The notes under the pieces were generated by a model, which saw nothing but the letters and a program-made list of their open reading frames with translations, was not told the DNA's origin and searched no databases. From an uncultured Alphaproteobacteria bacterium (GTDB taxonomy: Bacteria > Pseudomonadota > Alphaproteobacteria > HIMB59): DNA of 64,000 nt. Location: positions 1 to 64,000 of the forward strand of contig CACLZM010000001.1 in the NCBI GenBank assembly GCA_902611415.1, written 5' to 3'. Below are positions 40,425 to 61,649 of this stretch, piece after piece. The position numbers and the translations under genes were made by a program. How positions within the stretch are numbered: the first letter of the stretch is position 1; every line of letters begins with the position of its first letter.

Positions 40425-40435
40425 ATTTTGGATTT
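40417..40435. promoter_or_regulatory. Degenerate IclR-type operator upstream of tmoX (site D)
   Basis: TGTTTCATATTTTGGATTT matches 15 of the first 16 bases of the site at 49751-49769 (TGTTTCATATTATGGAACA), with the right arm worn to GGATTT. It lies about 70 bases upstream of the tmoX start. It may be a weaker site of the same regulator or a chance match in AT-rich DNA. Confidence 0.35.
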
Positions 40436-40504
40436 TAAGGCTTCAACCTTGTTGTCTTATGCCCTATATTACTTCTACTATTATAATAGATATAGGAGGA
40501 GTAA

Positions 40505-41446: not shown

Positions 41447-41458
41447 TATAATATTTTT

Positions 41459-41502
41459 AAAATCCTCCCTTAAATGGGAGGATTTTAGTTTTAATTTTTT
41501 TT
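41459..41502 (+). terminator. Hairpin with T run between tmoX and tmoW
   Basis: AAAATCCTCCC pairs perfectly with GGGAGGATTTT (41459-41469 and 41476-41486) around a 6-base loop, followed by a T-rich tract ending in eight T at 41502. Structure of an intrinsic terminator or mRNA-stabilising 3' hairpin. The downstream tmoW starts only 15 bases later, so partial termination probably sets a high ratio of binding protein to membrane parts. Confidence 0.85.
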
Positions 41503-41516
41503 GATAGGTTAATCTT

Positions 41517-44598: not shown

Positions 44599-44601
44599 AG
44601 A

Positions 44602-46953
44602 ATGATCATCCCAAGAGTTACTCAACCTTATGAACCTGGATTACCAGCTCTTGGTGACGACTTAGAAAATTATTTGGTAACTGGTGGAGGTTCTCTCACA
44701 TTAAAATTAGAACCAGATGACAAATTTAAAATAATTAATTTAGAAGGCCATCAACAGGCCGAGATTGTATGCTTTAATTCAAAGCGAGAGTGTAATCTAT
44801 CAGCTTTAGGTCTTAATAACGAGCACAACGGACAATTAACAAAAAAAATCCTTACGAGCGAGGAGGAGTCAGCTCAAATAGCACGTACTAAATTAAAAAA
44901 ACTTGGATATGAGGTAGAGTCTATTAGTCAATCGATTTTAGTATTTTCTCAAAATTCACTCTCAGGTTCAATTGAAGAGTTTAAATCAAACGACTCCATT
45001 GTTTGTATAATTTCTGCACCAGGCGAAAGTGAAATTACACATGAAAATATTCCTGCATCCGAACTACGAGTAATTGTTCAAAGAAATAAAAAACGTGAAG
45101 AGGGGGAATTTTTATTACCAGATCCTTTAATGGATCCTGTTGAAGAAATTTTTGTTAAAAGATATACCGCAATGGCCTATGAGGTCAAAGAAGGAGACTT
45201 TATTCAGATAATTGATGTTTATGGAAGACAATGTTCTGACTTTATGGCATTCGACTCAGAGAGCCTTCAAAAAGGCCAAGAGCTCTCAATAGATACAACT
45301 AATAGTAGATATTTAATGGGAAGTGCTTTTCCAATGCCAGGTCTCCATTCTAAATATTACGATGAAAATCAAATGCCAATGGTTGAAGTCTACAGAGACA
45401 CTGTCGGAAGACATGATACGTTCGGTACTGCATGTACTTCAAAATTTTATGATGATATTGGCTATTTTGGTCATCCAAATTGCTCTGATAATTTCAATTA
45501 TGTATTAGATAAGTTTACTGTGAGAAAAAGACTAGGTTGGAATGCTATAAATTTATTTTACAACACAGCCATTGATGCAAATAATGCTTTAATTTTTGAT
45601 GAACCATGGTCTAGACCAGGAGACTATGTGATGTTTAAAGCCCTGAAAAATTTAGTTTGTGTCTCCTCTGCCTGTCCAGACGATGTAGATGCAGCTAATG
45701 GATGGAATCCTACTGACATTTTTGTTAGAGTCTATAGACCGAATAGACCTTTTAGTAAAGGAATGGCATTTAGAATGAAAGCAGACTCTGATCCCAAATT
45801 AACTAAAGAAACTGGTTTTCACCCAAGAGTATCAAAACTTACTGAAAATATTGTTGAGTACAAAGGCTTCTGGTTAGCTTCTAATTATAATAATCTCGGG
45901 GCGCACCAAGAATATGAAGCTTGCAGAGAGAGAGCTATTATTATGGATCTATCTGCACTAAGAAAGTTTGAAGTACGAGGCCCAGACGCTGAAGAACTTT
46001 TACAAATGACTTGCACCAGAAACATCAGAAAACTATCTGTTGGCCAAGTTGTTTACACTGCGATGTGCTACGAGCATGGAGGTATGCTTGATGACGGTAC
46101 AGTATTCAAAATGACGGATGATAATTTTAGGTGGATTTGTGGAGATGAATATTGCGGTGAATGGTTAAGAGAAAAAGCAAAGGAACATAACTTAAAGGTA
46201 TGGATTAAATCTTCTACTGATAATTTACATAATGTTTCCGTCCAAGGGCCAAAGAGTAGAGAAATATTAAAAAAGATAATCTGGACACCTCCTCATCAAA
46301 CATCATTGACTGATTTAGAGTGGTTTAGGTTTTCTATAGCTAGATTAAATACTTTAGATGGAATTCCTTTAATGGTTTCTAGAACTGGATATACAGGTGA
46401 ACTAGGTTATGAAATATTTTGTCATCCGAGTAAAGCTGCTGAAGTTTGGGATGCTGTAATGAAAGCTGGAGAAGAGTTTGGAATTGTGCCTATGGGATTG
46501 GACGCTTTGGATTTAGTTAGAATTGAAGCTGGTTTAGTTTTCGCAAATTATGAATTCGATGATCAAACTGATCCGTTTGAGGCAGGAATTGGTTTTACAG
46601 TTCCTCTTAAATCAAAAGAGGATAACTTTATTGGTAAAGAAGCTTTACTTGAAAGAAAGACAAACCCTCAAAGAAAACTAGTTGGACTGGAGATTGAGGG
46701 AAATGAAACTACCGGGCATGGTGACTGTGTTCATCCTTCAAATAATGGAAGGGAACAAGTTGGCATTATAACAAGTGGTATGAAATCCCCTGTTCTAAAT
46801 AAAAATATTGCTCTTTGTAAAATAAATGTCAAATACAGCGAGCTTAATACTGAAGTTGAAATAGGTAAGTTAGATGGTCAACAAAAAAGAATAAAGGCTA
46901 AGGTTGTACCTTTTCCATTTTATGATCCAAGTAAATCAAGAGTTAAATCCTAA
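44602..46953 (+). CDS. tdm: Trimethylamine N-oxide demethylase
   Basis: 783 residues. The N-terminal DUF1989-like domain covers about 1-390; a GcvT-type tetrahydrofolate domain covers about 400-780 (MCYEHGGMLDDGTVF, SRTGYTGELGYEIFCHP, RIEAGLVFANYEFDD). Cysteines at 278, 294 and 358 keep the 16- and 64-residue spacing I recall for the zinc ligands of Methylocella silvestris Tdm, and Asp 213 in QCSDF corresponds to its proposed catalytic Asp. Reaction: TMAO to dimethylamine and formaldehyde, with the C1 unit captured on folate. Position after tmoXWV and near tmm fits exactly. Function in this organism inferred by homology. Confidence 0.93.
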   Translation: MIIPRVTQPYEPGLPALGDDLENYLVTGGGSLTLKLEPDDKFKIINLEGHQQAEIVCFNSKRECNLSALGLNNEHNGQLTKKILTSEEESAQIARTKLKKLGYEVESISQSILVFSQNSLSGSIEEFKSNDSIVCIISAPGESEITHENIPASELRVIVQRNKKREEGEFLLPDPLMDPVEEIFVKRYTAMAYEVKEGDFIQIIDVYGRQCSDFMAFDSESLQKGQELSIDTTNSRYLMGSAFPMPGLHSKYYDENQMPMVEVYRDTVGRHDTFGTACTSKFYDDIGYFGHPNCSDNFNYVLDKFTVRKRLGWNAINLFYNTAIDANNALIFDEPWSRPGDYVMFKALKNLVCVSSACPDDVDAANGWNPTDIFVRVYRPNRPFSKGMAFRMKADSDPKLTKETGFHPRVSKLTENIVEYKGFWLASNYNNLGAHQEYEACRERAIIMDLSALRKFEVRGPDAEELLQMTCTRNIRKLSVGQVVYTAMCYEHGGMLDDGTVFKMTDDNFRWICGDEYCGEWLREKAKEHNLKVWIKSSTDNLHNVSVQGPKSREILKKIIWTPPHQTSLTDLEWFRFSIARLNTLDGIPLMVSRTGYTGELGYEIFCHPSKAAEVWDAVMKAGEEFGIVPMGLDALDLVRIEAGLVFANYEFDDQTDPFEAGIGFTVPLKSKEDNFIGKEALLERKTNPQRKLVGLEIEGNETTGHGDCVHPSNNGREQVGIITSGMKSPVLNKNIALCKINVKYSELNTEVEIGKLDGQQKRIKAKVVPFPFYDPSKSRVKS

Positions 46954-48317: not shown

Positions 48318-49652
48318 TTATTTTGTATCTAAATATGTAGCCATAGAGTCATCCATAGCATCCAACCATGTAGTGTGATGTGAGGGACCAGTGGTGCCAG
48401 TGACAGGCGAGGAAAAGGATTTATCTCTATAAGTCAGGATATTTTCTTCCTTATGGTGCTCCCAATCATAAAAATGTTTGCGAATTAACTCAAAGTCAAT
48501 TTTTGGGTAGTCAACAGCAGAACATAAATCCACACAATAATCTGTTTGAAAATCAATCATTTGATAGGCATCCTCTAGGGCCTCTTCCTTTTTAACCCAG
48601 TTATCAATATCCTTTGCTAACTCATCAGCTGAAGGCAGAATTATTTTGTTCATTATTATGTCTCTAACATACCAAGCTTGGGCATCAAACATGTTAAAAG
48701 TATGAAACTGATCTTGCATACCAAGATAAAACAAATTTTGATTATTTTGCCATACTACTCCTTTGTATAAGTTTGGAGGATACAGCCTGTTATGAGTTTT
48801 TAATTTTAGATCTTCTGGTAAAAAAGGAAAATGATGCAAGTAACCTGTACATAGTATTAAGGCATCCATTTCTTGAACTGTGCCATCTTTAAAAACTGCT
48901 TTGTTTCCATCGATCTTATCCATGTAATGTACTTCTTTCATGCCTTCAGGCCAATTGAAACCCATTGGATTGTTTCTATAACCAATAGTAACAGTTTTAG
49001 CTCCATATTTATGGCACTGTAACGCTACATCTTCAGCAGAATAACTACTTCCAAGAACGACAACGTTTTTATCTCTAAACTCTTCAGCGTCTCTGAAATC
49101 ATGAGAGTGCATTATTCTCCCTGGAAAACTATTCATTCCCTCATATTCAGGAATGTAGGGAACAGAGAAGTGACCAGTCGCAACAACTAATTTATCAAAA
49201 CTCTCAGTTTTAGTTTGATCGTCTTTTTTATTTCGGTATGTAATATCAAATCCATTACCATTATCAGCAACAGAGGTAACAGTAGTGTTAAACTTTACGT
49301 ATTTTTTTACATCTGAATTTTCTGCACGACCTAAAATGTAATCTTGAAGGACGGCTCTTGGAGGGAAGGAGGGAATTGGTTTTTTGAAATGCTCATCAAA
49401 AGAATAATCTGCAAATTCAAGGCACTCTTTTGGCCCATTCGACCAAAGGTATCTATACATGCTATTGTGAATTGGATCTCCATATTGATCAGACCCGGTT
49501 CTCCAAGTATAATTCCAAAGACCACCCCAACTTTCTTGTTTTTCAAAGGCAACAACCTCAGGAATATTTTCGCCTTTGCTTTGCGCTTGATGCAGAGATC
49601 TTAAAAAAGATAGTCCACAGGGACCTGTACCAATTAGTGCAACTTTTGTCAT
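48318..49652 (-). CDS. tmm: Trimethylamine monooxygenase (flavin-containing)
   Basis: 444 residues, the usual Tmm length. FAD motif VALIGTGPCGLSFLR near 4-18, the FMO identifying motif FPGRIMHSHDF at about 176-186, and NADPH motif VLGSSYSAEDVA near 198-209. GGAGGAGA precedes the ATG. Oxidises trimethylamine to TMAO with NADPH and oxygen; it can also act on DMS. Transcribed away from mgdA; the intervening 173 bases hold a palindromic operator. Together with Tdm and the importer it completes TMA to dimethylamine conversion. Confidence 0.95.
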   Translation of the reverse strand: MTKVALIGTGPCGLSFLRSLHQAQSKGENIPEVVAFEKQESWGGLWNYTWRTGSDQYGDPIHNSMYRYLWSNGPKECLEFADYSFDEHFKKPIPSFPPRAVLQDYILGRAENSDVKKYVKFNTTVTSVADNGNGFDITYRNKKDDQTKTESFDKLVVATGHFSVPYIPEYEGMNSFPGRIMHSHDFRDAEEFRDKNVVVLGSSYSAEDVALQCHKYGAKTVTIGYRNNPMGFNWPEGMKEVHYMDKIDGNKAVFKDGTVQEMDALILCTGYLHHFPFLPEDLKLKTHNRLYPPNLYKGVVWQNNQNLFYLGMQDQFHTFNMFDAQAWYVRDIIMNKIILPSADELAKDIDNWVKKEEALEDAYQMIDFQTDYCVDLCSAVDYPKIDFELIRKHFYDWEHHKEENILTYRDKSFSSPVTGTTGPSHHTTWLDAMDDSMATYLDTK

Positions 49653-49750
49653 TATTCTCCTCCGATTTGAATTAATATTAATAATTAAATTTTAATTTCC
49701 AATCCATTTTTTGTCATACTCTGTAATAAATACAGGGATAATAAAAATGT

Positions 49751-49769
49751 TGTTTCATATTATGGAACA
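49751..49769. promoter_or_regulatory. IclR-type palindromic operator between tmm and mgdA (site A)
   Basis: TGTTTCATATTATGGAACA, an inverted repeat with one arm mismatch, 57 bases before mgdA and about 99 bases before tmm on the other strand. Near-identical palindromes lie at 57870-57888 and 58711-58737, next to the iclR gene. Site and regulator assignment inferred from recurrence. Confidence 0.7.
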
Positions 49770-49825
49770 GGTTTATTGTAGCATTTTATTAGGAATATAT
49801 ATTTTCGAAGAGGTTTAATTGAATC

Positions 49826-51082
49826 ATGCAAAAGTACTCAGTTTTTAGTTTAGTAAAAAATGCTTTCACCAACCATGAAAATTGGGAGGTAGCTTGGAAA
49901 GACCCTGAGCCTAAAAAAGAATACGATGTCATAATTGTAGGCGGCGGTGGTCATGGTCTTGCAACAGCTTATTATCTTGCAAAAGAACATGGCATCACAA
50001 ACGTTGCCATTCTTGAAAAGGGTTGGATTGGTGGAGGTAATGTTGGAAGAAACACCACCATCTTGAGATCTAACTATATGTTTGATTCAAACGCTCATTT
50101 TTATGAGTTTGGCATGAAGCTTTGGGAAACACTTAGCCAAGAATTAAATTACAACGTTATGTACTCACCGAGAGGAATTATAAACTTAGCTCACTCTGAT
50201 GCACAAATGAATGCTTACGCTAGAAGAGGTAACTCTATGAGATTAAATGGTATTGATGCAATTCTTCTTGGAAGGGATGATTTAAAAAAGATGATCCCAT
50301 TTGCAGATTTTTCAGAAACATGTCGTTTTCCCATTCATGGTGGTTTAATGCAACCACGTGGAGGAACTGCAAGACATGATGCAGTTGCTTGGGGATATGC
50401 GAGACAGGCAGACTCCATGGGTGTCGATATAATTCAAAATTGTGAAGTGACAGGTTTTGATGTTAACAACGGAAAAATAGAAGGTGTTCAAACATCAAGA
50501 GGAAATATTAAAACTAAAAAAGTTGGATTGTGTGTTGCTGGAAGCACTACACTTTTAGCAGACATGTTAAATATGAGACTTCCAATTGAAGCACATGTTC
50601 TGCAAGCTTGTGTCTCAGAACCAGTTAAACCTTTACTTCATAACGTAGTTACATTCGGAGCAGGTCACTTTTATTGTAGCCAATCTGACAAAGGTGAAAT
50701 GGTTATGGGTGGTGATTTAGATGGTTACAATAGCTATGCTCAAAGAGGAAATATGCCAATGATACAGCATGTTTTAACAGGTGGATTGGCTGTCTTCCCA
50801 AACTTTAGTAGACTCAAAATGCTTCGAACTTGGGGAGGTATTATGGATATGTCCATGGATGGTTCTCCAATAATCGATAAAACTCATATTGAGGGGGTAT
50901 ATCTTAATTGCGGTTGGTGTTATGGAGGCTTTAAAGCTACTCCTAGCTCAGGTTTTGTTTTTGCACATACAATAGCACAAGATCAAGTACATGAACTCAA
51001 CTCAGAATTTAACCTTGAAAGATTTCATACTGGAAAAATTATAGATGAAAAGGGTGTAGGCCCTAAACCTTGGATCGGTTAA
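49826..51082 (+). CDS. mgdA: N-methylglutamate dehydrogenase subunit A (sarcosine oxidase beta-like)
   Basis: 418 residues, SoxB-like. FAD-binding VIIVGGGGHGLATAYYLAKEHG near 35-56, GNVGRNTTILRSNY near 71, and GGTARHDAVAWGYARQAD with His about 184, the position of the His that holds covalent FMN in heterotetrameric sarcosine oxidase. First gene of a four-gene SoxBDAG-like set. Near tmm, gmaS and mgsABC such sets are N-methylglutamate dehydrogenases: N-methylglutamate to glutamate plus a C1 unit. A sarcosine oxidase role remains possible because sequence alone does not separate the two well. Confidence 0.86.
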   Translation: MQKYSVFSLVKNAFTNHENWEVAWKDPEPKKEYDVIIVGGGGHGLATAYYLAKEHGITNVAILEKGWIGGGNVGRNTTILRSNYMFDSNAHFYEFGMKLWETLSQELNYNVMYSPRGIINLAHSDAQMNAYARRGNSMRLNGIDAILLGRDDLKKMIPFADFSETCRFPIHGGLMQPRGGTARHDAVAWGYARQADSMGVDIIQNCEVTGFDVNNGKIEGVQTSRGNIKTKKVGLCVAGSTTLLADMLNMRLPIEAHVLQACVSEPVKPLLHNVVTFGAGHFYCSQSDKGEMVMGGDLDGYNSYAQRGNMPMIQHVLTGGLAVFPNFSRLKMLRTWGGIMDMSMDGSPIIDKTHIEGVYLNCGWCYGGFKATPSSGFVFAHTIAQDQVHELNSEFNLERFHTGKIIDEKGVGPKPWIG

Positions 51083-51085
51083 AAG

Positions 51086-51358
51086 ATGTTAGAAATAAAA
51101 TGCCCATACTGTGGTAAGCGCTCACAAAATGAATTTTCTTATGGCGGAGACGCCACTATAAAAAGACCTCAACTAGGAGAAGAAATTTCAACCGAGGATT
51201 GGGATAATTTTGTTTACTACAGAGATAACCCAAGGGGAAAACACTCAGAACTATGGCATCATGTTTCTGGATGTAGACAATGGTTTAAAGTCTCAAGAGA
51301 CACCGCTACACATGAAATTTTTGACACTTGTAAAATGAACGAGGACTTTAATGTTTAA
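51086..51358 (+). CDS. mgdB: N-methylglutamate dehydrogenase subunit B (sarcosine oxidase delta-like)
   Basis: 90 residues, SoxD-like zinc protein: CPYCGKRSQNEFSY near 5-18 and HHVSGCRQWFKVSRDTATHEI near 64-84 give the three Cys and one His metal site. Structural small subunit of the heterotetramer. 3-base gap after mgdA and 8-base overlap with mgdC. Confidence 0.92.
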   Translation: MLEIKCPYCGKRSQNEFSYGGDATIKRPQLGEEISTEDWDNFVYYRDNPRGKHSELWHHVSGCRQWFKVSRDTATHEIFDTCKMNEDFNV

Positions 51359-54350
51359 CAGTTTTAGAACAACCAACTCAACTGGACTTATTAATAAGGA
51401 TAAGAAAATTAATTTTACTTTTAACGGTACTATTTATCATGGCTATGAAGGAGACACTCTTGCATCTGCTTTAATTGCAAATGGTGTTCATTTAGTTGGA
51501 AGAAGTTTTAAGTATCATCGACCTCGCGGTTTTTTGGGAGTTGGTGTTGAAGAACCAAATGCAATGGTACAATTGCATGATGGCAATAAATCTGAACCTA
51601 ATATCATTGCAACCGAAGTTGAGTTAGTTGAGGGATTAAAAGCTAAAAGTCAAAATTGTTGGCCTTCAGTTCAATTTGATATTGGAGAAATCAATAATGT
51701 CTTAAATCGTTTTTTTCCTGCAGGTTTCTATTACAAAACATTTATGTGGCCAAAAAGTTTTTGGATGAAAATCTATGAACCATTTATAAGAAAAGCTGCT
51801 GGTATGGGTAAAGCACCGCTGTTACCTGACCCAGATAGGTACGAGCATAATTATGAACACTGCGATGTACTAGTTGTTGGCTCTGGCCCATCAGGCCTCG
51901 CAAGTGCTCTGGCTGCTGCTAAAAATGGGGCAAGGGTTATATTAGCAGAAGACAAGCCTAATTTTGGTGGCTCTCTTCTAACTGACGAAGTTACGATTGG
52001 TAACATGTCAGGAAAAGAGTGGGCTAGTGATACCATTTCCCAACTAAAAAGTATGCCAAATGTAATATTAAAAAAAAGGTCACAAGTCTTCGGATACTAT
52101 GATCACAATATGACGGTAATGATTGAAAGAGTTAGCGATCATATTGAAAATCCGTCAAAATACACACCAAGACAAAGACTACATTATATTAGAGCTGGAG
52201 AAGTAATAGTTTCAACTGGTTCTATTGAAAGACCAATATCTTTTGGAAACAATGATAGACCAGGAATTGTATTAGCCTCAGCAGCAAAAGAGTATATGAA
52301 GGTTTATGAAACATTAGTTGGTAAGAAACCAATTATATTTACCAATAATGATACAGCATATTCAACTGCCCTTGAGTTTATTAAAAATGATATTGAACCA
52401 ATCATTGTAGACACTCGAGACAGCTCAAACGGTGAATTAGTCAAGGAAGTTCAGCAAAAGGGTATTTCTATAAAATTTAATTCAGGGATCGCAGACACTA
52501 AAGGACATTTGAAGATAAATTCTGCTATCATCGGCAAGCTTGACTCTTCAAAAGAGTCTTTTATTTCAGAAGAAACAGTAGAGTGTGATTGCATTTGTAT
52601 GTCCGGAGGCTGGACACCAACGGTACATTTATCTTCCCAAGCTGGAAATAAATTAAAGTTTAATGAGGATATTGATGCGTTCGTACCGGATAAAAAAAGA
52701 CAAAAAGAAACAGCAATTGGAGCAGCTAATGGTTCTTTTACCTTAAATCAATCTCTAGCTGAAGGTTTTCAAGTGGGCTTTGATTTATCAAACAAATTCA
52801 CAGATCAAAATAATCCTACAAATAGTCCCAACTCAAATGAACCTAGCTATGAAAAACATGAAAAGCTCTGGTGTATGCCTTTACCATCTGGAAAAAAACC
52901 AAAACGCTTTATCGACTTTCAAAATGACGTTGCAGTTTCTGATGTAGAGCTAGCAATTAGAGAAGGCTTCAGATCAATTGAGCACGTCAAAAGATATACA
53001 ACTCTTGGGATGGCTGGCGATCAAGGCAAGACAAGTAATTTAAATGGTTTGCAATATGTATCTAAAATTGAAAAAAAGATTGTTCCAGAAGTTGGTCATA
53101 CAACATTTAGACCACCGTACACTCCTGTAACAATTGGAGCTATCGTGGGTAGAGAAGTTGGTAATCACTATTTACCGACAAGAAAATCTCCCATTCATAC
53201 ATGGCATGAGGAAAATAATGCTGTTTTTGTAGCGGCAGGTTTATGGCAAAGACCCAGATACTACCCAAGGGGTTCTGAGGATATGAACAGTGCTGTTAAT
53301 AGGGAAGCTGCAAATGTAAGAAAAAACGTTGGAATTTGTGATGTTACGACACTTGGTAAGATTGATATTAAAGGTCCGGATGCACCAGAATTCTTAAACA
53401 GAGTTTATACAAATGCATGGCTGAAACTGCCCGTTGGAAAAGCTAGATATGGTGTAATGCTAAGGGAAGATGGCATGGTTTTTGATGATGGAACAACATC
53501 TCGATTATCTGAAAATCATTTTCATATGACTACCACTACTGCCCAAGCTGCAAATGTTTTATCGCACTTAGAGTATTATTTACAAGTTGTATGGCCAGAT
53601 TTAGATGTAAATGTCTTATCAACTACTGAACAGTGGTCTGGTATAGCAGTGGCAGGTCCGAAATCTAGAGATCTTTTATCAAAATTATTTCCTGATGTAG
53701 ATATGTCAAATGAGGGTCTACCATTCATGGGTCTTGTTGACTCTTCAATAGACGGTATCAAAGCTAGAATTTATAGAATTTCTTTTTCTGGCGAACTAGC
53801 TTATGAGGTAAATGTCGAGTCAAACTATGGTCTTTATATTTGGAAGAAGATCATGGAAGAAGGTCAGTCATTTGATATTCAACCATACGGAACAGAGGCT
53901 CTATCAACCTTAAGAATAGAAATGGGTCATGTCGCAGGAGCAGAATTAGACGGACGCACTATTCCTTTTGATGTTGGACTGAATAGTATGGTGAGTCAGA
54001 AAAAAGATTTCATAGGTAAAAGATCTTTATCTAAAGACGCATTCACTGAGTCGGATAGACAAACTATTGTTGGACTTGTTCCATTAGACAAAAAAACAAA
54101 GATCCCAGAGGGTTCACATATTATAGAAGATAACAGTGCTGTTGCCCCAATACCTAAACTTGGACATGTTTCATCTTCTTGTTGGAGTGTTGAATATAAT
54201 AATCCTTTTTCCATAGCCATAATAAAAGATGGTAAAAATAAAATTGGTAAAAATCTATATGCTGTCTCTCCTTTAAAAGATATTTCAATTCCCGTTGAGG
54301 TAGTATCCTCACACTATGTTGACCCCGAAGGCTCAAGGGTGAGATCATAA
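51351..54350 (+). CDS. mgdC: N-methylglutamate dehydrogenase subunit C (sarcosine oxidase alpha-like)
   Basis: 999 residues, full SoxA length. N-terminal ferredoxin-like region (FNGTIYHGYEGDTLASALIANG, GRSFKYHRPRGFLGVGVEEPN), an NAD/FAD two-dinucleotide domain (DVLVVGSGPSGLASALAAAKNGA near 173-195), the A3 region (MSGGWTPTVHLSSQAG), and C-terminal GcvT domains (SFSGELAYEVNVES, RIEMGHVAGAELDGR). Binds NAD, FMN and tetrahydrofolate in the complex, so the released methyl can be trapped as methylene-THF. Ends in an overlap with mgdD. Confidence 0.92.
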   Translation: MFNSFRTTNSTGLINKDKKINFTFNGTIYHGYEGDTLASALIANGVHLVGRSFKYHRPRGFLGVGVEEPNAMVQLHDGNKSEPNIIATEVELVEGLKAKSQNCWPSVQFDIGEINNVLNRFFPAGFYYKTFMWPKSFWMKIYEPFIRKAAGMGKAPLLPDPDRYEHNYEHCDVLVVGSGPSGLASALAAAKNGARVILAEDKPNFGGSLLTDEVTIGNMSGKEWASDTISQLKSMPNVILKKRSQVFGYYDHNMTVMIERVSDHIENPSKYTPRQRLHYIRAGEVIVSTGSIERPISFGNNDRPGIVLASAAKEYMKVYETLVGKKPIIFTNNDTAYSTALEFIKNDIEPIIVDTRDSSNGELVKEVQQKGISIKFNSGIADTKGHLKINSAIIGKLDSSKESFISEETVECDCICMSGGWTPTVHLSSQAGNKLKFNEDIDAFVPDKKRQKETAIGAANGSFTLNQSLAEGFQVGFDLSNKFTDQNNPTNSPNSNEPSYEKHEKLWCMPLPSGKKPKRFIDFQNDVAVSDVELAIREGFRSIEHVKRYTTLGMAGDQGKTSNLNGLQYVSKIEKKIVPEVGHTTFRPPYTPVTIGAIVGREVGNHYLPTRKSPIHTWHEENNAVFVAAGLWQRPRYYPRGSEDMNSAVNREAANVRKNVGICDVTTLGKIDIKGPDAPEFLNRVYTNAWLKLPVGKARYGVMLREDGMVFDDGTTSRLSENHFHMTTTTAQAANVLSHLEYYLQVVWPDLDVNVLSTTEQWSGIAVAGPKSRDLLSKLFPDVDMSNEGLPFMGLVDSSIDGIKARIYRISFSGELAYEVNVESNYGLYIWKKIMEEGQSFDIQPYGTEALSTLRIEMGHVAGAELDGRTIPFDVGLNSMVSQKKDFIGKRSLSKDAFTESDRQTIVGLVPLDKKTKIPEGSHIIEDNSAVAPIPKLGHVSSSCWSVEYNNPFSIAIIKDGKNKIGKNLYAVSPLKDISIPVEVVSSHYVDPEGSRVRS

Positions 54351-54946
54351 TGGAACAAGCTCAAAATCTATCACCACTTCATTTTGATCATAAGCTCGGC
54401 TTGTTTGGCGACCATGAGAATAAAGAAAACCTATTAAAAATTTCGGAAATAAAAGACCTAAGTATTTTCCAAATTGCTAAATTTAAAAAAAGCTCAATTG
54501 AGATTGAAAAAGTTACCATAAATCAACTTAATTTACCGACAGAAAGCCTAAAAGTTTCTCACAACCAAGAAACAAGAGTATTGTGGACCGGCCCTGATAC
54601 CTGGTTAATTATCTCAAAAAAAATTGACTTGAAAGAAGAAATTTACAAATCGATTAAAGATCAGGATTTTGCTATTACAGATATTTCACAATCAAGAGCT
54701 GTATTACAAATATCTGGCGTAAATGCAAAAAATGTTTTAAAAAAAGGTTCTCCAATAAATTTTAACGAAAATATGTTTAAACCAAATAATTGCGTGAACA
54801 CTACATATAACGGAATTAACATATTGATCGACTATTTAGACGACCAACCGTTTTGTTTTAACCTTTATGCATTAAGAAGTTTTGGTGGTTCTTTTTACCA
54901 TAGCATTACTGACTCGTCATTAGAGTATGGGTATGAGGGTATTTAA
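54350..54946 (+). CDS. mgdD: N-methylglutamate dehydrogenase subunit D (sarcosine oxidase gamma-like)
   Basis: 198 residues, SoxG-like GcvT-related small subunit: TRVLWTGPDTWLIIS near 77-91, AITDISQSRAVLQISG near 107-122, LKKGSPINFN near 132 and a C-terminal RSFGGSFYHSITDSSLEYGYEG. Completes the heterotetramer. mgsA of the first synthase set follows after 5 bases, so dehydrogenase and synthase are co-transcribed. Confidence 0.9.
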   Translation: MEQAQNLSPLHFDHKLGLFGDHENKENLLKISEIKDLSIFQIAKFKKSSIEIEKVTINQLNLPTESLKVSHNQETRVLWTGPDTWLIISKKIDLKEEIYKSIKDQDFAITDISQSRAVLQISGVNAKNVLKKGSPINFNENMFKPNNCVNTTYNGINILIDYLDDQPFCFNLYALRSFGGSFYHSITDSSLEYGYEGI

Positions 54947-54951
54947 TTTTA

Positions 54952-55833
54952 ATGTGTGGTATAGTTGGAATATATTTAAAAAATAAAAAATACAATTCAC
55001 AATTAGGTAAATTTCTCACTGGGATGATGAATAGTATGGCTACGCGTGGTCCTGATAGCGCAGGTTTTGCGATATACTCATCTGAGAAAAAAAAGAAGTA
55101 TAAATATTCAGTCTGCTCTAATACTGATCAGGTAAAAGAAATTTCAAAAAAACTATCTAAGCATGTAAAAGATATAAAAGTAAAATCTATTTCAGATCAT
55201 TTAATAATTGAAACAGCAATGAAGCCTAAGAAATTTATAGAAATTTTAAAAAATCATGAAGAATTAAGTTTAGTTGGATATGGTAGTTGCATAGAAATAT
55301 TTAAACAAGTGGGAAATCCGAAGGATGTTGTTAAAAATTTTTCACTAGAGAAGTTTTCTGGCTCACATGCTATTGGGCATACAAGGATGGCAACAGAAAG
55401 TGCAATCACGACAGATGGCTCTCATCCATATTCCACAGGTGAGGATGAATGTCTTGTACATAACGGATCCTTGTCAAATCATAACAATTTAAGAAGATCG
55501 CTTCAGAAAAAAGGGATTGAAATAAAGTCCATGAATGATACGGAAGTCGCTGCAGGTTATATTTCAAATGGATTATCTGACAAAAAATCACTCAAAGAAA
55601 CACTTTTGGATGGACTGAAGGACCTCGATGGTTTTTACACATTTATTTCTGGAACCAAAAATGGCATGGCAATTGTTAGAGATGAGATTGCTTGTAAGCC
55701 CGCAGTTGTTGCAGAAACAAAGGATTATGTTGCTATTGCCTCAGAGTTTCAAGCAATGGCACATTTACCAAATGTAAATTCAGCAAAAATTTTTGAACCA
55801 GAGCCCGGAAAAGTATATAGCTGGGGCAAATAA
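54952..55833 (+). CDS. mgsA: N-methylglutamate synthase subunit A, copy 1 (class II glutamine amidotransferase)
   Basis: 293 residues. Ntn-type amidotransferase with Cys nucleophile exposed at residue 2 (MCGIVGIYL), RGPDSAGFAIY near 32 and GHTRMATESAITTDGSHPY near 139. Corresponds to GlxB / PurF-like domain of glutamate synthase. Together with the next two genes it forms the three-part enzyme that exchanges methylamine and glutamate groups to give N-methylglutamate. TAATG overlap with mgsB. Confidence 0.86.
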   Translation: MCGIVGIYLKNKKYNSQLGKFLTGMMNSMATRGPDSAGFAIYSSEKKKKYKYSVCSNTDQVKEISKKLSKHVKDIKVKSISDHLIIETAMKPKKFIEILKNHEELSLVGYGSCIEIFKQVGNPKDVVKNFSLEKFSGSHAIGHTRMATESAITTDGSHPYSTGEDECLVHNGSLSNHNNLRRSLQKKGIEIKSMNDTEVAAGYISNGLSDKKSLKETLLDGLKDLDGFYTFISGTKNGMAIVRDEIACKPAVVAETKDYVAIASEFQAMAHLPNVNSAKIFEPEPGKVYSWGK

Positions 55834-56516
55834 TGAATTTAAATTTAAAAAAAGAGTCATTGAGGAAAGTTAATGAAACTCTTCAAAGTATAGATAGAAA
55901 ATCAAACAAAAAGATTTTTAAAATTTCAAATCCAGATGGAAATCACGCTATTTGTGCTGGATTAAAAGACGAGATTGAAGTCACTATTGATGGTCACACA
56001 GGATACTATTGTGCTGGTATGAACATGAATGCAAATATCATTGTAAATGGAAATGTGGGCACAGGTGTTGCAGAAAATATGATGTCTGGAACTGTTCATG
56101 TTAAGGGTAATGCATCCCAATCAGCCGGAGCTACAGCACATGGTGGAACTTTGATCATTGATGGTGATACTAGTTCACGTTGTGGGATTTCAATGAAAGG
56201 AATAGATATTATAGTTAAAGGATCGGTAGGCCATATGTCTGCATTTATGGCTCAATCTGGAAATTTAGTTATATGTGGAGATGCTGGAGACGCTCTTGGA
56301 GACAGTATCTATGAAGCAAATATTTTTATTAAGGGTAAGGTGAAATCACTCGGTGCTGACTGCGAAGAGAAAAAAATGAAAAAAAAAGATCAAAATATTT
56401 TGAGATCTCTTTTAAAAAAAGCAAGTATAAATGAAAGTGAGATTAAAAACTTCAAAATGTATGGTTCAGCAAGAAAACTTTATAATTTTAATATAGATAA
56501 TGTATCTGAGTACTAA
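55833..56516 (+). CDS. mgsB: N-methylglutamate synthase subunit B, copy 1 (GltB C-terminal beta-helix type)
   Basis: 227 residues, right-handed beta-helix with repeating GxxG units (TGYYCAGMNMNANIIVNGNV, GTGVAENMMSG, CGISMKGIDIIVKG), the GXGG domain of glutamate synthase large subunit (GlxC). It lacks about 45 N-terminal residues present in copy 2 and has a lysine-rich segment near 185-200. TAATG overlap with mgsC. Confidence 0.86.
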   Translation: MNLNLKKESLRKVNETLQSIDRKSNKKIFKISNPDGNHAICAGLKDEIEVTIDGHTGYYCAGMNMNANIIVNGNVGTGVAENMMSGTVHVKGNASQSAGATAHGGTLIIDGDTSSRCGISMKGIDIIVKGSVGHMSAFMAQSGNLVICGDAGDALGDSIYEANIFIKGKVKSLGADCEEKKMKKKDQNILRSLLKKASINESEIKNFKMYGSARKLYNFNIDNVSEY

Positions 56517-57835
56517 TGGCAGAAAAATTTAAAACTACACCAAGAAAATCTTGGACATTTGATGACTATACAAACTCTGAAATTCGAAGAGCTGCAGAAA
56601 CAGGTATTTATGACATTAGAGGCGGTGGTTCAAAAAAAAGATTACCTCATTTTGACGATCTTCTTTTTTTAGGCGCATCAATGTCAAGATACCCTTTAGA
56701 GGGCTACAGAGAAAAGTGTAGCACTAACGTCACTCTTGGAACAAGATTTGCAAAAAAACCGCTTGAATTAGATATTCCAATAACAATTGCTGGAATGAGC
56801 TTTGGAGCTCTCTCAGGACCTGCAAAAGAAGCGCTTGGAAGAGGAGCTAGTATTGCCGGGACTTCAACGACTACAGGCGATGGTGGTATGACCCCTGAGG
56901 AGAGAGGACAATCAAAGCATTTGGTTTACCAATTACTTCCCTCAAGGTATGGAATGAACCCAGAGGATTTAAGAAAAGCAGATGCTATTGAAGTTGTGAT
57001 AGGTCAAGGTGCCAAACCTGGCGGTGGAGGTATGTTACTCGGTCAAAAGATAAGTGATCGTGTTGCCGAGATGAGAACACTACCAAAAGGGATTGATCAG
57101 AGATCAGCATGTAGACATCCAGATTGGACCGGACCAGATGATTTAGAAATTAAGATTTTAGAACTCAGGGAGATAACAGGTTGGAAAGTTCCTATATTTG
57201 TAAAAATTGCAGGATCTAGGCCTTACTACGATACTGCTCTTGCAGTAAAAGCAGGTGCTGATGTAGTGGTGCTTGATGGCATGCAAGGAGGTACTGCAGC
57301 TACACAAGAGGTATTTATCGAAAACGTAGGTCAGCCAACATTGGCATGTATCAGGCCAGCAGTAGATGCTTTATTAGACTTAGATATGCACAGGAAAGTT
57401 CAGTTAATTATTTCAGGCGGAATTAGAAATGGTGCTGATGTTGCTAAAGCTATGGCATTGGGTGCTGATGCTGTTTCCATTGGCTCATCAGCATTAATTG
57501 CACTTGGTGATAATGATCCAAAGTGGGAGAGTGATTACAAAAAACTTGGAACAACAGCTGGTGCCTTCGATGATTGGCATGAGGGTAAAGACCCATCTGG
57601 TATAAATACACAAGACCCAAAATTAATGAAAAGATTAGATCCAGTAAAAGGCGGAAAGAGATTATCTAATTATCTAAAGGTTATGACTCTTGAAGCCCAA
57701 ACTATAGCGAGGGCATGTGGTAAAAACGATTTACATAATCTTGAACCTGAGGACCTATGTGCATTAACAGTTGAAGCTGCTGCAATGGCAAGGGTTCCTT
57801 TAGCGGGAACCGGTTGGGTGCCTGGTAAGATTTAA
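56516..57835 (+). CDS. mgsC: N-methylglutamate synthase subunit C, copy 1 (glutamate synthase-like FMN domain)
   Basis: 439 residues, GltS FMN-binding TIM barrel: AGMSFGALSGPAKEALGRGA near 90, GDGGMTPEERGQS near 122, GQGAKPGGGGMLLGQKIS near 162, VLDGMQGGTAATQEVF near 243 and SGGIRNGADVAKAMALGADAVSIG near 300. Cysteine residues near 336-400 could host an iron-sulfur centre. Catalyses the N-methylglutamate-forming step with MgsA and MgsB. Last gene of the mgd-mgs unit. Confidence 0.88.
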   Translation: MAEKFKTTPRKSWTFDDYTNSEIRRAAETGIYDIRGGGSKKRLPHFDDLLFLGASMSRYPLEGYREKCSTNVTLGTRFAKKPLELDIPITIAGMSFGALSGPAKEALGRGASIAGTSTTTGDGGMTPEERGQSKHLVYQLLPSRYGMNPEDLRKADAIEVVIGQGAKPGGGGMLLGQKISDRVAEMRTLPKGIDQRSACRHPDWTGPDDLEIKILELREITGWKVPIFVKIAGSRPYYDTALAVKAGADVVVLDGMQGGTAATQEVFIENVGQPTLACIRPAVDALLDLDMHRKVQLIISGGIRNGADVAKAMALGADAVSIGSSALIALGDNDPKWESDYKKLGTTAGAFDDWHEGKDPSGINTQDPKLMKRLDPVKGGKRLSNYLKVMTLEAQTIARACGKNDLHNLEPEDLCALTVEAAAMARVPLAGTGWVPGKI

Positions 57836-57869
57836 TCATTAGTTGCCAATAACTTATACTTAACTATAA

Positions 57870-57888
57870 TGTTTCACAATCTGGAACA
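57870..57888. promoter_or_regulatory. IclR-type palindromic operator at the iclR start (site B)
   Basis: TGTTTCACAATCTGGAACA, same arms as site A. It lies before the GGAGG ribosome site and the TTG at 57905, and inside the longer ORF reading from the ATG at 57869, which argues that the ATG is not the start. Position between promoter and ribosome site suggests autoregulation. Confidence 0.7.
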
Positions 57889-57904
57889 TTGTTGGAGGAC
57901 AGTT

Positions 57905-58675
57905 TTGCAACAAGACTTAAAATATATAAATAAATCTCTGGAAAAATCTTTTAAAATTCTTGAAATTTTATCAAAATCAATTTTCCCGTTGAAGGCATCA
58001 AATATTTCCAGAAAAGCAGTTTTATCTAGAACAACTACATTTAGACTATTGTCTGTTTTATCTCAACTTGGTTATATCCATAAAAATACTGGAACTAATA
58101 CATACACTATGGGGCATAAAGCTTTTCAATTTGGAGAAACCTCAGATTATCTTCAGTCAATTTCTGAGACTTCTAAAGAAATTCTAAAAGAGGTCTCTAG
58201 TAAAACGAATTTAATTACCTATTTGGCAATGCTTGAAGGATCTCAAATAGTTCATTCTGATAAAATTTCTGACAACAATGATGATGCAACTATTAGAACT
58301 TTTAGAATGAGACTTGACGCTCATTGCTGTGCTTTGGGAAAAGTCATGCTTGCTTACAGACCTGAAAATGAAATTGCAACAATTTATCGAAGTTATAATT
58401 TTTATCCTCATACAAACAATACAATTACAAATTTAAATGATTTAAAAAGACAACTTGGCAAAATTAGAACTAACGGTTATGCGCTTAATCATGGAGAAGC
58501 TTTTGAAAACTCTTATGGAATAGGAGTTGCTATTTTAGACAAAGATAAAAGATCATTTGCAGGAATCGCTTTATCAGGAAGTAAAAATATCTTAAACCCA
58601 AAAACTATGATGGATTATGTTGATCTCCTTCAATCTGCCTCTATTAAAATTTCTCGACTAATTGTTGCCAATTGA
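57905..58675 (+). CDS. IclR-family transcriptional regulator
   Basis: 256 residues from the TTG at 57905, preferred over the ATG at 57869 because GGAGG lies 7 bases upstream and the ATG is inside an operator. N-terminal winged helix (SFKILEILSKS, ASNISRKAVLSRTTTFRLLSVLSQLGYI) and C-terminal effector domain (LDAHCCALGKVMLAY, GYALNHGEAFENSYGIGVAI). Lies between the mgd-mgs unit and the FAD oxidoreductase-gmaS-mgs unit. Palindromes A, B and C are its likely sites. Whether it represses or activates, and its ligand (perhaps a methylamine intermediate), is unknown. Confidence 0.9.
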   Translation: MQQDLKYINKSLEKSFKILEILSKSIFPLKASNISRKAVLSRTTTFRLLSVLSQLGYIHKNTGTNTYTMGHKAFQFGETSDYLQSISETSKEILKEVSSKTNLITYLAMLEGSQIVHSDKISDNNDDATIRTFRMRLDAHCCALGKVMLAYRPENEIATIYRSYNFYPHTNNTITNLNDLKRQLGKIRTNGYALNHGEAFENSYGIGVAILDKDKRSFAGIALSGSKNILNPKTMMDYVDLLQSASIKISRLIVAN

Positions 58676-58710
58676 CGATTATTGTTGATAAATAATAGAT
58701 TTTTGTAAAA

Positions 58711-58737
58711 ATTTTGTTTCATAATATGAAACAAAAT
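58711..58737. promoter_or_regulatory. Perfect 27-base palindrome upstream of the FAD oxidoreductase (site C)
   Basis: ATTTTGTTTCAT, a 3-base AAT centre, then ATGAAACAAAAT: both 12-base arms match exactly. It contains the TGTTTCA core of sites A and B and sits 55 bases before the oxidoreductase start codon. It is the strongest copy of the motif, next to the iclR gene. Confidence 0.75.
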
Positions 58738-58792
58738 GTGTTTTTTTCATACCTCGCAGACAAAATGTAATTGCTTGGAGGTTACTAAAATA

Positions 58793-60139
58793 ATGAGCTT
58801 ACCTACTAAATGTGACTATTTAATAATCGGTGCTGGAATTCACGGTCTGAGCACCGCATGGCATCTTTGTAAAAAATTATCCAGCAAAGGCCAACTCAAA
58901 GAAAATTCTGTAGTCGTTTTGGAAAAATCCAAAGTTGCAAATGGAGCTAGTGGTGTTGCATGTGGAATTGTAAGGAACAATTACTACCAGCCTGCAATGA
59001 GAAGACTAATGGCTCATTCTGTAAATGTTTGGAATGAGAATGCTGAGGCTTTAACTTACAAGCCAGTTGGCTACATGCAGATCAACTCCGAGCTTATGCA
59101 AGAGGGAATGTCTGAAGTTTATGAGCAGCAAAAAGAAATAGGATTTGACTCTGAGTTTATTGAGGGAGCATCAGATTGTGATAAGTATATGAAAGACATG
59201 TTGCCAGATTGGCAAGCTCAAGGCATCACTTCAGTTTTACACGAAAAGAAAACAGGATATGGAGCTAATAGAGGAGCCATAGAGGGCTTCCATAAGTTAG
59301 CAGTATCGGCTGGTGCAAAAGTTTTAGAAGGTGTGACTGTTAACAATTTAATTTCTTCTAATGGTAGTGGCGCAGTTTCGGCTGTAGAAACATCAGAGGG
59401 TAAAATTGAATGCACTCAATTAGTTGTTGCGGCTGGTCCATGGGTAAGAAAATTCTGGGAAATTTTAGAATTACCTAACACCGTAAAAATAAAAAAACCT
59501 GATGGTTCATTTACTGATGATATACCTATGTGGTCATACATGGCGCTTGAAGAGGGTGAGTTGGAAGTTGATCCAAGAAGTTATAAAACAGCAAACGGAA
59601 CAGAGTACCCAGTTATTCATGTTGATACAGAAGCTACACTTGTCTCAAATAAAACAGGAGATGTTATACATGAAAATGTTATGTGGGGTTTTTACTATAA
59701 GCCCGATGTCTACAGAGATGGTATACAAGGCGGCTCCTCTCCATATGACATAAATAAACCTGTAAACGATATAAGTCTTGACCCTTATGGTCATGACTCA
59801 GATGAGTTTCAACCAAGGGCTTCTTTTGAGGATAAATGGACCTCAGCTTTGGCTTTTTGCCAAAAGCAATTTGATGGATGTCACGCTAAATACAAAAAGC
59901 AAAAAGCTGGCGGTATTGGCTGTGTTACTCCAGATCGTTTTCCCGTATTCGACCGATACAGAGAAAACGTATATATTATAGCTGATGCAAACCATGGATA
60001 CAAAATGGCTGGGTTAGGTGATCTTGTATCTAATGAGTTACTTGGTGAGAAATCTGAAATTCTAGAACCTTTTAGATTTTCTCGTTATGAAGAAGGGAAG
60101 TTACATCCGGTTTCAAAGAGCCCGTTCCCTTGGAGTTGA
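58793..60139 (+). CDS. DAO-family FAD-dependent oxidoreductase of unknown substrate
   Basis: 448 residues from the ATG at 58793, which has TGGAGGT upstream; the longer frame from 58736 starts inside palindrome C. FAD motif YLIIGAGIHGLSTAWHLCKKL near 8-28, NGASGVACGIVRNNYYQPAMRRL near 58-80, C-terminal PVFDRYRENVYIIADANHGYKMAGLG near 380-405. Related to sarcosine oxidase beta / glycine oxidase-type amine oxidases. Co-directional and 21 bases before gmaS, so it belongs to the methylamine regulon. It has no SoxA/SoxD/SoxG partners of its own. Substrate could be a secondary or N-methyl amine. Confidence 0.82.
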   Translation: MSLPTKCDYLIIGAGIHGLSTAWHLCKKLSSKGQLKENSVVVLEKSKVANGASGVACGIVRNNYYQPAMRRLMAHSVNVWNENAEALTYKPVGYMQINSELMQEGMSEVYEQQKEIGFDSEFIEGASDCDKYMKDMLPDWQAQGITSVLHEKKTGYGANRGAIEGFHKLAVSAGAKVLEGVTVNNLISSNGSGAVSAVETSEGKIECTQLVVAAGPWVRKFWEILELPNTVKIKKPDGSFTDDIPMWSYMALEEGELEVDPRSYKTANGTEYPVIHVDTEATLVSNKTGDVIHENVMWGFYYKPDVYRDGIQGGSSPYDINKPVNDISLDPYGHDSDEFQPRASFEDKWTSALAFCQKQFDGCHAKYKKQKAGGIGCVTPDRFPVFDRYRENVYIIADANHGYKMAGLGDLVSNELLGEKSEILEPFRFSRYEEGKLHPVSKSPFPWS

Positions 60140-60160
60140 TGTAAAAGGAGGAGGAATAAA

Positions 60161-61630
60161 ATGACAGCGCTAGAAACGTACGTTAAGGATAAAAAGAGAC
60201 AAGACTATATAAAACAAGTTAGAAAAAAAATTGATAAATTAGGAATTGAGTACATTTATTATCAATTTATTTCTGTTACAGGTCGAATTGTAGGTAAAGG
60301 TGTTCCTGCAGATCATTGGGAGAGTGTAGCCAATAAAGGTTTCCAATTAGTTTATGGAGCTACTGCTAATCTATTTACAAATAGACATGGTGATTACATA
60401 GGTTATGGACCAGAGGCTCACGAATTAGTGGGTATACCTGACCCTGAAACATTTGTTCAAATTCCATGGGATAAAAGAATTGCCAGAGTTTTTTGTACTT
60501 GTTTTAGAAACAGGGAAGAAGAAAAAGATCCTGGTGGATATCTTACATCTGATTGCAGAGGTAACTTAAAAAGAGCCCACGAAGAATTTAAAAAGAAACA
60601 CAAACTAGAATTACGAGCAGGGACAGAACCTGAAATGATGTGGTTAACAAAAAACGAAGATGGTTCACCGACCGGTTCAGGTTTCTCTAAGCCCTACTGC
60701 TATCACATTGATCAATTTGAATCATTAAGACCTGTTTACATGAAAGTAATTGAGTATTCACGTGCAATGGGTTTGGACATTATCCAAGGTGATCATGAGG
60801 ACGCGCCTGGACAATTAGAACTAAATTTCAACTACGATGATGTTGTTAGAAACGCTGACAGGTTATCAACTTACAGACAAATATGTGCTCAAGTAGCAAG
60901 AGAATTTAATTTGATTGCTTGTTTTCTGAGTAAGCCATTTGTCGGCGTGTCTGCTTCTGGGTGTCACACAAATATTTCACTCTGGAAGGGCGGAAAAGAT
61001 GAGTTAATACCATGTGGTAACAAGACTATCCCAGGTATGGAAAATGTATTTCATCACCGTAGAGGAGGTACAAATGTCTTTATGCCGGACGGAAAAGATA
61101 GAAGAATTCCTGGAAAAATAGGCCTTCAAGCAATTGGTGGTGTCATGGAACACCTTCCTGCTTTGACAGCCTTGGGTTCCTCAACTGTGAATTCATATAG
61201 AAGACTTTGGGATACAGGTTTTTGGGCTCCAGTTTATGCGGACTGGGGATATCAAAACAGAACCTGTGGTTTAAGGGTATCTGCCCCTGGTAGATTTGAA
61301 TATCGATCAGTCGACTCAGCCCACAACCCATACTTAATGGGAAGCGGTCTGTTGAAAGCATTCGACCATGGTATTACAAAGAAAATGGATCCAGGCAAAC
61401 CTGAACAACAAAATATGTATGAACAAATGAAAGCTGGTAAGCAAGTTGAAAAATTACCAATGACTCTTGGTGAGGCATTAGATCGATTAGAAACCGACAA
61501 GGTAATACAAGATGCTCTACCAGGTGACATGATGAAAGTGTTTATGGAGTATAAAAGAGATGAGTGGGAAGAATTTTTAGCAACTCCGACTCAATGGGAT
61601 CTCGATAAATACCTAGATTGCTTACCATAA
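60161..61630 (+). CDS. gmaS: Gamma-glutamylmethylamide synthetase (glutamine synthetase-like)
   Basis: 489 residues, glutamine synthetase fold of the GlnT/GMAS type. N-terminal beta-grasp (YYQFISVTGRIVGKGVPADHWE near 28-49), catalytic domain with Glu pair in RAGTEPEMMWL near 150, HEDAPGQLELNFNYDD near 205, GCHTNISLWKG near 266 and HRRGGTNVF near 292. ATP-dependent coupling of glutamate and methylamine to gamma-glutamylmethylamide. AGGAGG precedes the ATG. Placed with mgs and mgd genes, which is why GMAS is preferred over ammonium-assimilating GlnA. Confidence 0.9.
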   Translation: MTALETYVKDKKRQDYIKQVRKKIDKLGIEYIYYQFISVTGRIVGKGVPADHWESVANKGFQLVYGATANLFTNRHGDYIGYGPEAHELVGIPDPETFVQIPWDKRIARVFCTCFRNREEEKDPGGYLTSDCRGNLKRAHEEFKKKHKLELRAGTEPEMMWLTKNEDGSPTGSGFSKPYCYHIDQFESLRPVYMKVIEYSRAMGLDIIQGDHEDAPGQLELNFNYDDVVRNADRLSTYRQICAQVAREFNLIACFLSKPFVGVSASGCHTNISLWKGGKDELIPCGNKTIPGMENVFHHRRGGTNVFMPDGKDRRIPGKIGLQAIGGVMEHLPALTALGSSTVNSYRRLWDTGFWAPVYADWGYQNRTCGLRVSAPGRFEYRSVDSAHNPYLMGSGLLKAFDHGITKKMDPGKPEQQNMYEQMKAGKQVEKLPMTLGEALDRLETDKVIQDALPGDMMKVFMEYKRDEWEEFLATPTQWDLDKYLDCLP

Positions 61631-61649
61631 GATAAGATAGGAGAAAAGT

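Follow-up and report, generated by a model that had tools for sequence, protein, structure and literature searches.

A conserved palindrome predicted to be an IclR operator links methylated-amine genes with a rhodopsin cluster in the HIMB59 order

The DNA analysed here (the window) is a stretch of 64,000 nucleotides (nt) from an uncultured, streamlined marine alphaproteobacterium of the HIMB59 order, a group described as AEGEAN-169 and formerly as SAR11 subclade V (PMC10308909). It contains a region for the catabolism of trimethylamine (TMA) and methylamine, in which several operons are preceded by one palindrome, with TGTTYCA-N5-TGRAACA as the consensus used. We propose that the IclR-family regulator whose gene spans positions 57905-58675 uses this palindrome as its operator. 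Taken as a whole, our explanation of an eight-promoter regulon, in which the regulator would activate catabolic and rhodopsin-cluster promoters and repress its own gene, seems to us fairly likely; binding of the palindromes by the IclR protein is very probable, autorepression, in the regulator's own genus only, is likely, and activation of the catabolic promoters is favoured with somewhat less confidence. Because the same palindrome precedes all of these genes, one switch protein probably controls them jointly. Seven sites with at least eight promoters in the genus would form one regulon, consisting of tmm and mgdABCD-mgsABC (which share a site), tmoXVW-tdm, iclR, an operon of a FAD-dependent oxidoreductase, a glutamine-synthetase (GS)-like ligase and a second mgsABC set, dmfA1A2, a rhodopsin-flotillin pair, and pxpA.

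Exact matches to TGTTTCANNNTNTGNAACA occur at four places in the source genome (1.24 Mb in 30 contigs, 81% complete), three in the window and one on contig C4 (C4:83431-83449). The first window site, TGTTTCATATTATGGAACA (49751-49769), is the predicted operator between the divergent genes tmm and mgdA and stands 98 nt from the tmm start and 56 nt from the mgdA start. The second, TGTTTCACAATCTGGAACA (57870-57888), is the predicted operator at iclR and overlaps the predicted transcription start of that gene. The third, TGTTTCATAATATGAAACA (58711-58737, core 58715-58733), a perfect inverted repeat of 27 bases with an odd centre, is the predicted operator before the FAD-oxidoreductase operon. An asymmetric copy on the plus strand with three mismatches, TGTTTCATATTTTGGATTT (40417-40435), is the predicted operator before tmoXVW-tdm. 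At up to three mismatches the window holds 16 matches, as compared to 5.2 (standard deviation 2.2) in shuffled sequences, and none of 100 shuffles reached 16. Among the weaker matches in the source genome, 22 of the 23 inspected fall within open reading frames (ORFs) of at least 80 amino acids (aa); two of the ORFs holding such matches (in L009, and at L006:19712 with 83 aa) are shorter than 100 aa and doubtful, and the match at L006:19712 is the pxpA site treated below.

The original prediction, made from the window alone, had reported these palindromes, and all three good copies were found where it placed them, the last perfect over 27 bases as described. It had also noted the tmoX copy, which is present with its three mismatches, but the description of this copy as worn does not hold, since its position and left arm are retained in 33 of 36 loci. 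Two gene starts needed revision. The second palindrome had been placed on the iclR start; it overlaps only an ATG at 57869, and the likely start is a TTG at 57905, preceded by GGAGG and lying 16 nt past the end of the site, so that the palindrome would lie upstream of the start and not on it. The third palindrome does precede the start of the FAD-oxidoreductase gene, but this start is probably the ATG at 58793, 59 nt past the palindrome core, rather than position 58736.

A frequency check across genomes had been named beforehand, and by this measure the motif is not randomly distributed: 52 genomes of the same genus contain 136 matches to the consensus, one to four per genome, and no match to the reversed control pattern. 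For each gene, we counted loci with an orthologous N-terminus and merged near-identical rows for conservation means and for the -10 analysis below. A site with at most one mismatch was found at 38/38 tmm/mgdA loci and at 42 of 45 matches to the FAD gene, where the three misses (L016, L050, L155) are cross-hits of 29% identity. For iclR, 41/43 loci carry a site with at most two mismatches; both misses (L039, L154) come from genome G015, in which a copy with two mismatches runs across the estimated start. The tmoX copy lies 68-70 nt before the gene at 33/36 loci, with one mismatch in seven, three in 25 and four in one. Loci below 80% over the N-terminal 90 residues were left out (tmoX L245-L247; iclR L045, L159 and L160): a copy with a single mismatch stands farther upstream in L245 (about 133 nt from the estimated tmoX start) and in L246 (about 162 nt), L247 has no copy better than four mismatches, L045 has a one-mismatch site at iclR, and L159 and L160 are sister-family rows. 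The iclR gene is fragmented in G062:C3 and in L045; several neighbouring genes in L045 are fragmented as well, making a sequencing error likely there.

The arms of the palindrome are conserved above their surroundings, with mean major-base frequencies in arms and flanks of 0.97 and 0.60 for mgdA, 0.89 and 0.58 for iclR, and 0.92 and 0.63 for the FAD gene, and of 0.93 and 0.71 for dmfA1 and 0.94 and 0.64 for rhodopsin, two genes outside the window. Over 22 loci whose IclR N-termini are at least 96% identical, all five spacer positions of the iclR site vary, against only two of the 14 arm positions. The palindromes are genuine, and they are more conserved than chance would explain. That no regulator is involved, the palindromes being chance products of AT-rich DNA or an RNA element, is hardly credible. 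The region is indeed AT-rich and near-palindromes with three mismatches are common, but the reversed-pattern controls gave nothing in 52 genomes and the footprints stand between divergent flanks; chance palindromes were ruled out on these two grounds. The RNA element was set aside, as no Rfam match was found over 38000-64000. A search for terminator-like hairpins over 57700-58900 found none.

Several observations weigh against our explanation. The tmoX flanks are well conserved too (arms 0.89, flanks 0.71), and the spacer of the tmm/mgdA site is nearly as conserved as its arms (0.85-0.87). Many rows are near-identical relatives, and the counts are thus not independent. The dmfA1 site has three mismatches in genome G062, and three dmfA paralogue loci are without a good site. 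Finally, the likely canonical gmaS is without a site in this clade, as only four of 16 listed upstream sequences have one with at most two mismatches.

The regulon appears to be wider than first proposed, as sites at dimethylformamidase, rhodopsin and pxpA genes join it. The exact site on contig C4 stands 40 nt before two genes encoding proteins of 142 and 784 aa. The larger protein matches the large subunit of N,N-dimethylformamidase (6lvb) with 648 bits over residues 3-784 and PF20254 with 307 bits, its next best solved relative being N-acetyl-beta-phenylalanine acylase (453 bits), and the smaller, a small-subunit candidate, has a weak match to 6lvb_B (E-value 0.0072). By homology, we refer to this pair as dmfA1A2, a putative dimethylformamidase. 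Contig C4 also carries sites with a single mismatch, one standing 57 nt ahead of the gene of a type-1 rhodopsin (PF01036, 110 bits), which is directly beside a flotillin gene (PF15975, 102 bits), and another 58 nt ahead of pxpA. The dmfA1 site was found at 39/40 loci with at most one mismatch and exactly 40 nt before the gene, leaving out two loci below 60% over the N-terminal 90 residues (L149, L151) and one with too little upstream sequence. At rhodopsin, all 15 of 15 loci have a site with exactly one mismatch, and at pxpA all 13 of 13 have one, ten with at most two mismatches and three with three. Upstream of dmfA1 (L006:7392-7431) no ribosome-binding site is evident and a -10-like TAAAAT ends 6 nt before the ATG, for which reasons its transcript may be leaderless. 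No match to dimethylformamidase came from the closed genome G030.

These genes belong to a known type of cluster. The flotillin-associated rhodopsin (FAR) cluster is described as a rhodopsin gene beside a flotillin gene, accompanied by a sodium symporter, PxpA and N,N-dimethylformamidase (PMC10308929). Here, the region C4:80611-97500 (L006, L283) is such a cluster, with dimethylformamidase, sodium symporter, ABC transporter, biotin carboxylase and pxpA genes, and three palindrome copies head its operons. The main text of PMC10308929 has no words starting with methylamin, IclR or promoter; for the FAR cluster of Pseudothioglobus it names a hybrid histidine kinase and a regulator of the LuxR type. 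We consider it probable that the FAR and dimethylformamidase operons belong to the IclR regulon. A further step, for and against which we see about equal grounds, is that a single IclR-family activator, confined to the HIMB59 order as sampled, couples TMA and methylamine catabolism to the FAR cluster, which would then serve the uptake and hydrolysis of N-methylated amides, with its unusual rhodopsin made only during the use of methylated nitrogen compounds. If this is true, the amide of the FAR cluster could be, for instance, dimethylformamide or a natural relative of it. To our knowledge, the sites at dimethylformamidase, FArhodopsin and pxpA are the first regulatory clue to the role of the cluster. 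Such a tie of a rhodopsin cluster to the use of methylated amines was unexpected.

The protein encoded at 57905-58675 (plus strand, 3' of mgsC) has both IclR-family domains above their cut-offs (PF09339, 37.9 bits with a cut-off of 22; PF01614, 102.2 bits with a cut-off of 24), and its predicted model (pLDDT 75) has the two-domain IclR fold, with 1mkm as the best Foldseek match (E-value 1.5e-16, TM-score about 0.57). Among the NCBIfam subfamilies listed for it, none was reached at its cut-off. Its gene is the only one with an IclR-type helix-turn-helix (HTH_IclR) found in the source genome; such genes occur in 41 of the 52 genus genomes, once in 37 and twice in four. In a sample of 385 genomes of the class, matches at an E-value of 1e-30 came from three genomes of the genus and one other (32% identity). 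What ties this protein to the sites is that iclR adjoins them, that iclR in its own genus bears a site, that it is the sole IclR gene in 37 of 41 genomes, and that all 23 sister-family genomes with the orthologue have a site next to iclR. The proposed IclR-controlled methylated-amine regulon is thereby supported, by conservation, by adjacency and by the site at iclR itself.

In the sister family, an IclR orthologue of 43-47% identity is encoded in 23 of 110 genomes, and in every one of these a site lies beside iclR, exact in 20 and with one, one and two mismatches in the others. There, the FAD gene has a site with at most two mismatches at 21/21 loci and tmm one with at most three at 16/16 (nine with one, five with two, two with three); tmoX, found at 16 loci, is divergent from tmm there, so that one site would serve both. 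As a background, random 200-nt pieces of sister-family loci, real sites included, have copies with at most two mismatches in 47 of 960 cases. The expectation that relatives would keep the motif before the same genes is therefore borne out within the genus and, for tmm and the FAD gene, in the sister family. For autoregulation, the outcome is divided: the iclR site is kept at 41 of 43 loci in the regulator's own genus, but at 21 of 21 sister-family loci iclR is preceded by no site with at most two mismatches, which also counts against our explanation and implies that autoregulation is not general.

This absence would also fit a true operator that is bound by another regulator, with iclR merely a neighbour and a target, an alternative we regard as quite improbable. 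Adjacency differs from binding, and 10 of the 52 genus genomes have a site and no IclR match, a finding that likewise speaks against our assignment. Six of these ten were checked (all except G019, G034, G027 and G071), and in each the tmoX contig ends before the place of iclR, so that contig ends explain them. Moreover, the intergenic site accompanies iclR in all 23 sister-family genomes that encode it; of 47 exact matches there, 27 are not beside iclR, and the 15 of these inspected all fall within ORFs. The single IclR gene in 37 of 41 genomes and the absence of the AraC-type HTH_18 from the source genome and from 50 of the 52 genus genomes speak against this alternative as well. Binding by the IclR protein remains the reading we prefer.

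The layout of promoter elements around the sites bears on how the regulator would act. Downstream of the 49751-49769 site, a -10-like TATATT (49798-49803, plus strand) lies 28 nt past it in front of mgdA, and in front of tmoX promoter-like elements on the plus strand (40442-40470) comprise TTCAAC (40442-40447), 17 nt and TATATT (40465-40470), the latter 29 nt past the site. A TAnnnT element was found 26-29 nt past the site in all distinct genus rows of four promoters (mgdA 11/11; tmoX 8/8, each at offset 29; dmfA1 8/8; rhodopsin 9/9). Of 5000 circular shifts of the downstream columns, nine brought four promoters to a common offset, and among 64 patterns of the form XYnnnZ only TAnnnT reaches three or more promoters. 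This rule was formed after viewing the alignments, and pxpA and the sister-family tmoX are its sole later tests; pxpA, viewed once the rule was set, fits in 13/13. By eye, the -35 hexamers of the mgdA, tmoX, dmfA1, rhodopsin and pxpA promoters look poor. Placement of the site before a -10-like element in these five promoters suggests an activator-like layout. At iclR, a near-consensus promoter (TTGCCA-16-TATAAT, 11/12; 57843-57870, plus strand) has its -10 element abutting the palindrome, with its hexamers TTGC(T/C)A and TATAAT kept in 22/22 close relatives, and this suggests an autorepressor-like layout.

The same regulon could instead be run by a plain repressor, with IclR bound at every site until a breakdown intermediate of methylated amines releases it, which appears to us rather unlikely, though less so than binding by a different regulator. 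KdgR, of the same family, is a repressor, and the iclR site overlaps the start region of its own gene. E. coli IclR and AllR are likewise described as repressors (PMC11323563). The activator-like layout is also missing at part of the sites, which tells against activation there: among distinct genus rows TAnnnT lies at 26-29 nt in 0/15 for tmm and 1/18 for the FAD operon, and in the sister family in 0/21 for the FAD gene, 3/16 for tmm and 8/16, about half, for tmoX, where five more have TAGTTG at 28 nt. In front of the FAD operon, a conserved block 27 nt past the site includes CAAAAT (58761-58766, plus strand), a possible -10 element that is not TAnnnT. Against plain repression, five promoters of the genus have the site 5' of the -35 position and a -10-like element about 28 nt from it, and the -35 hexamers of these five look poor, unlike the near-consensus promoter of iclR.

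In the mechanism that we favour, activation of the catabolic operons combined with self-repression, the regulator would bind a carboxylate intermediate of methylated-amine breakdown. Bound just upstream of weak -35 regions, the ligand-loaded protein would activate the catabolic and FAR promoters, and at the strong iclR promoter, where the operator overlaps the transcription start, it would repress its own synthesis. The nature of the effector is a tentative guess by analogy, drawn from ligands named in the titles of solved relatives (glyoxylate, 4-hydroxybenzoate and succinate).

The genes around the sites complete this picture. On the plus strand, tmoX, tmoV and tmoW, which we take to encode trimethylamine N-oxide (TMAO) uptake, their names coming partly from the original prediction, and tdm, encoding TMAO demethylase (NF053776, 1159 bits with a cut-off of 1100), occupy 40505-46953. 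tmm, encoding trimethylamine monooxygenase, lies on the minus strand (48318-49652; NF058570, 737 bits with a cut-off of 675). It is followed on the plus strand by mgdABCD (49826-54946; TIGR01373 and TIGR01372), encoding sarcosine-oxidase-like subunits, and the first mgsABC set (54952-57835), for both of which we infer the functional names. Beyond iclR, the FAD-dependent oxidoreductase gene (58793-60139), the gene of a GS-like ligase that is a distant GmaS paralogue (60161-61630), and mgsA and mgsB of set 2 (61650-63415), all on the plus strand, form a second gamma-glutamyl-type module (58793-63415) that continues into L007, the mgsC of set 2 extending past the window end. We considered the GS-like gene as the canonical gmaS and rejected it, because it scores 166 bits to 7cql and L007:1845-3152 scores 613; the latter, on contig C1 just past the window and adjoining an ammonium transporter gene, is the likely GmaS. 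In four distant relatives (L034, L039, L040, L048), the palindrome precedes the gmaS orthologue.

Two further sequence elements lie near the predicted operators. A perfect 12-nt palindrome, CTATTATAATAG (40478-40489), stands just 5' of the tmoX ribosome-binding site, may be a second promoter, and is intact or almost intact in the genus rows viewed. In the tmm leader (49697-49713, minus strand), a block resembling AAAAAATGGATTGGAAA lies between the predicted operator and tmm and is kept in many relatives. Far from the methylamine region, at 7110-7769, the window encodes a GntR-family regulator with an FCD domain.

A close known counterpart is found in Ruegeria pomeroyi DSS-3, with its regulators TmaR (AraC family) and TmoR (GntR) (PMC13390433). 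There, the regulator gene lies beside mgd, TmaR targets the tmm, tdm, gmaS-mgs and mgd promoters, binds its own promoter and activates downstream genes (PMC13390433); the likeness on our side consists of predicted sites and their layout. However, TmaR is of the AraC type and the regulator here of the IclR type (HTH_18 occurs in only 2/52 genus genomes), and dimethylformamidase and the rhodopsin cluster would be further members of the IclR regulon. The main text of PMC13390433 contains neither the word IclR nor the word HIMB59. In the open-licence PMC literature, we found no link of IclR with the regulation of trimethylamine or methylamine use, the two papers naming all three being unrelated by title and start of abstract, and no paper pairing HIMB59 with trimethylamine.

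Within the IclR family, some PcaR/PcaU/PobR members are activators. This group (TIGR02431) gives the best NCBIfam match to our protein, at 113.5 bits below the cut-off of 284.75, and acts in aromatic catabolism; the predicted model matches the fold of PcaR (8eju) over its full length. BhcR of Paracoccus denitrificans offers a likeness in mode of action, as an IclR-type protein from an alphaproteobacterium that activates the catabolic operon next to its gene and, as proposed, represses its own synthesis (PMC11323563), but our protein scores 107.2 bits where NF045644 requires 350, and BhcR is described with one gene cluster and glyoxylate as effector (PMC11323563). KdgR resembles it as an IclR-family regulator of a multi-operon regulon, and the half-site letters TGTTTCA/TGAAACA are common to both (PMC5559549). 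In the KdgR operator AAATGAAACAnTGTTTCATTT (PMC5559549), though, the half-sites stand in the opposite order to the TGTTTCA-N5-TGAAACA found here, which does not match that operator; the protein here, with 105.3 bits, also falls short of the NF011671 cut-off of 275, and the pathway is another one. Apparently, then, this is a system of an ordinary kind, an IclR regulon, but a new one. If our reading is true, genome streamlining has kept a dedicated switch for methylated amines in this lineage, and one other than the AraC-type TmaR recently described in a roseobacter.

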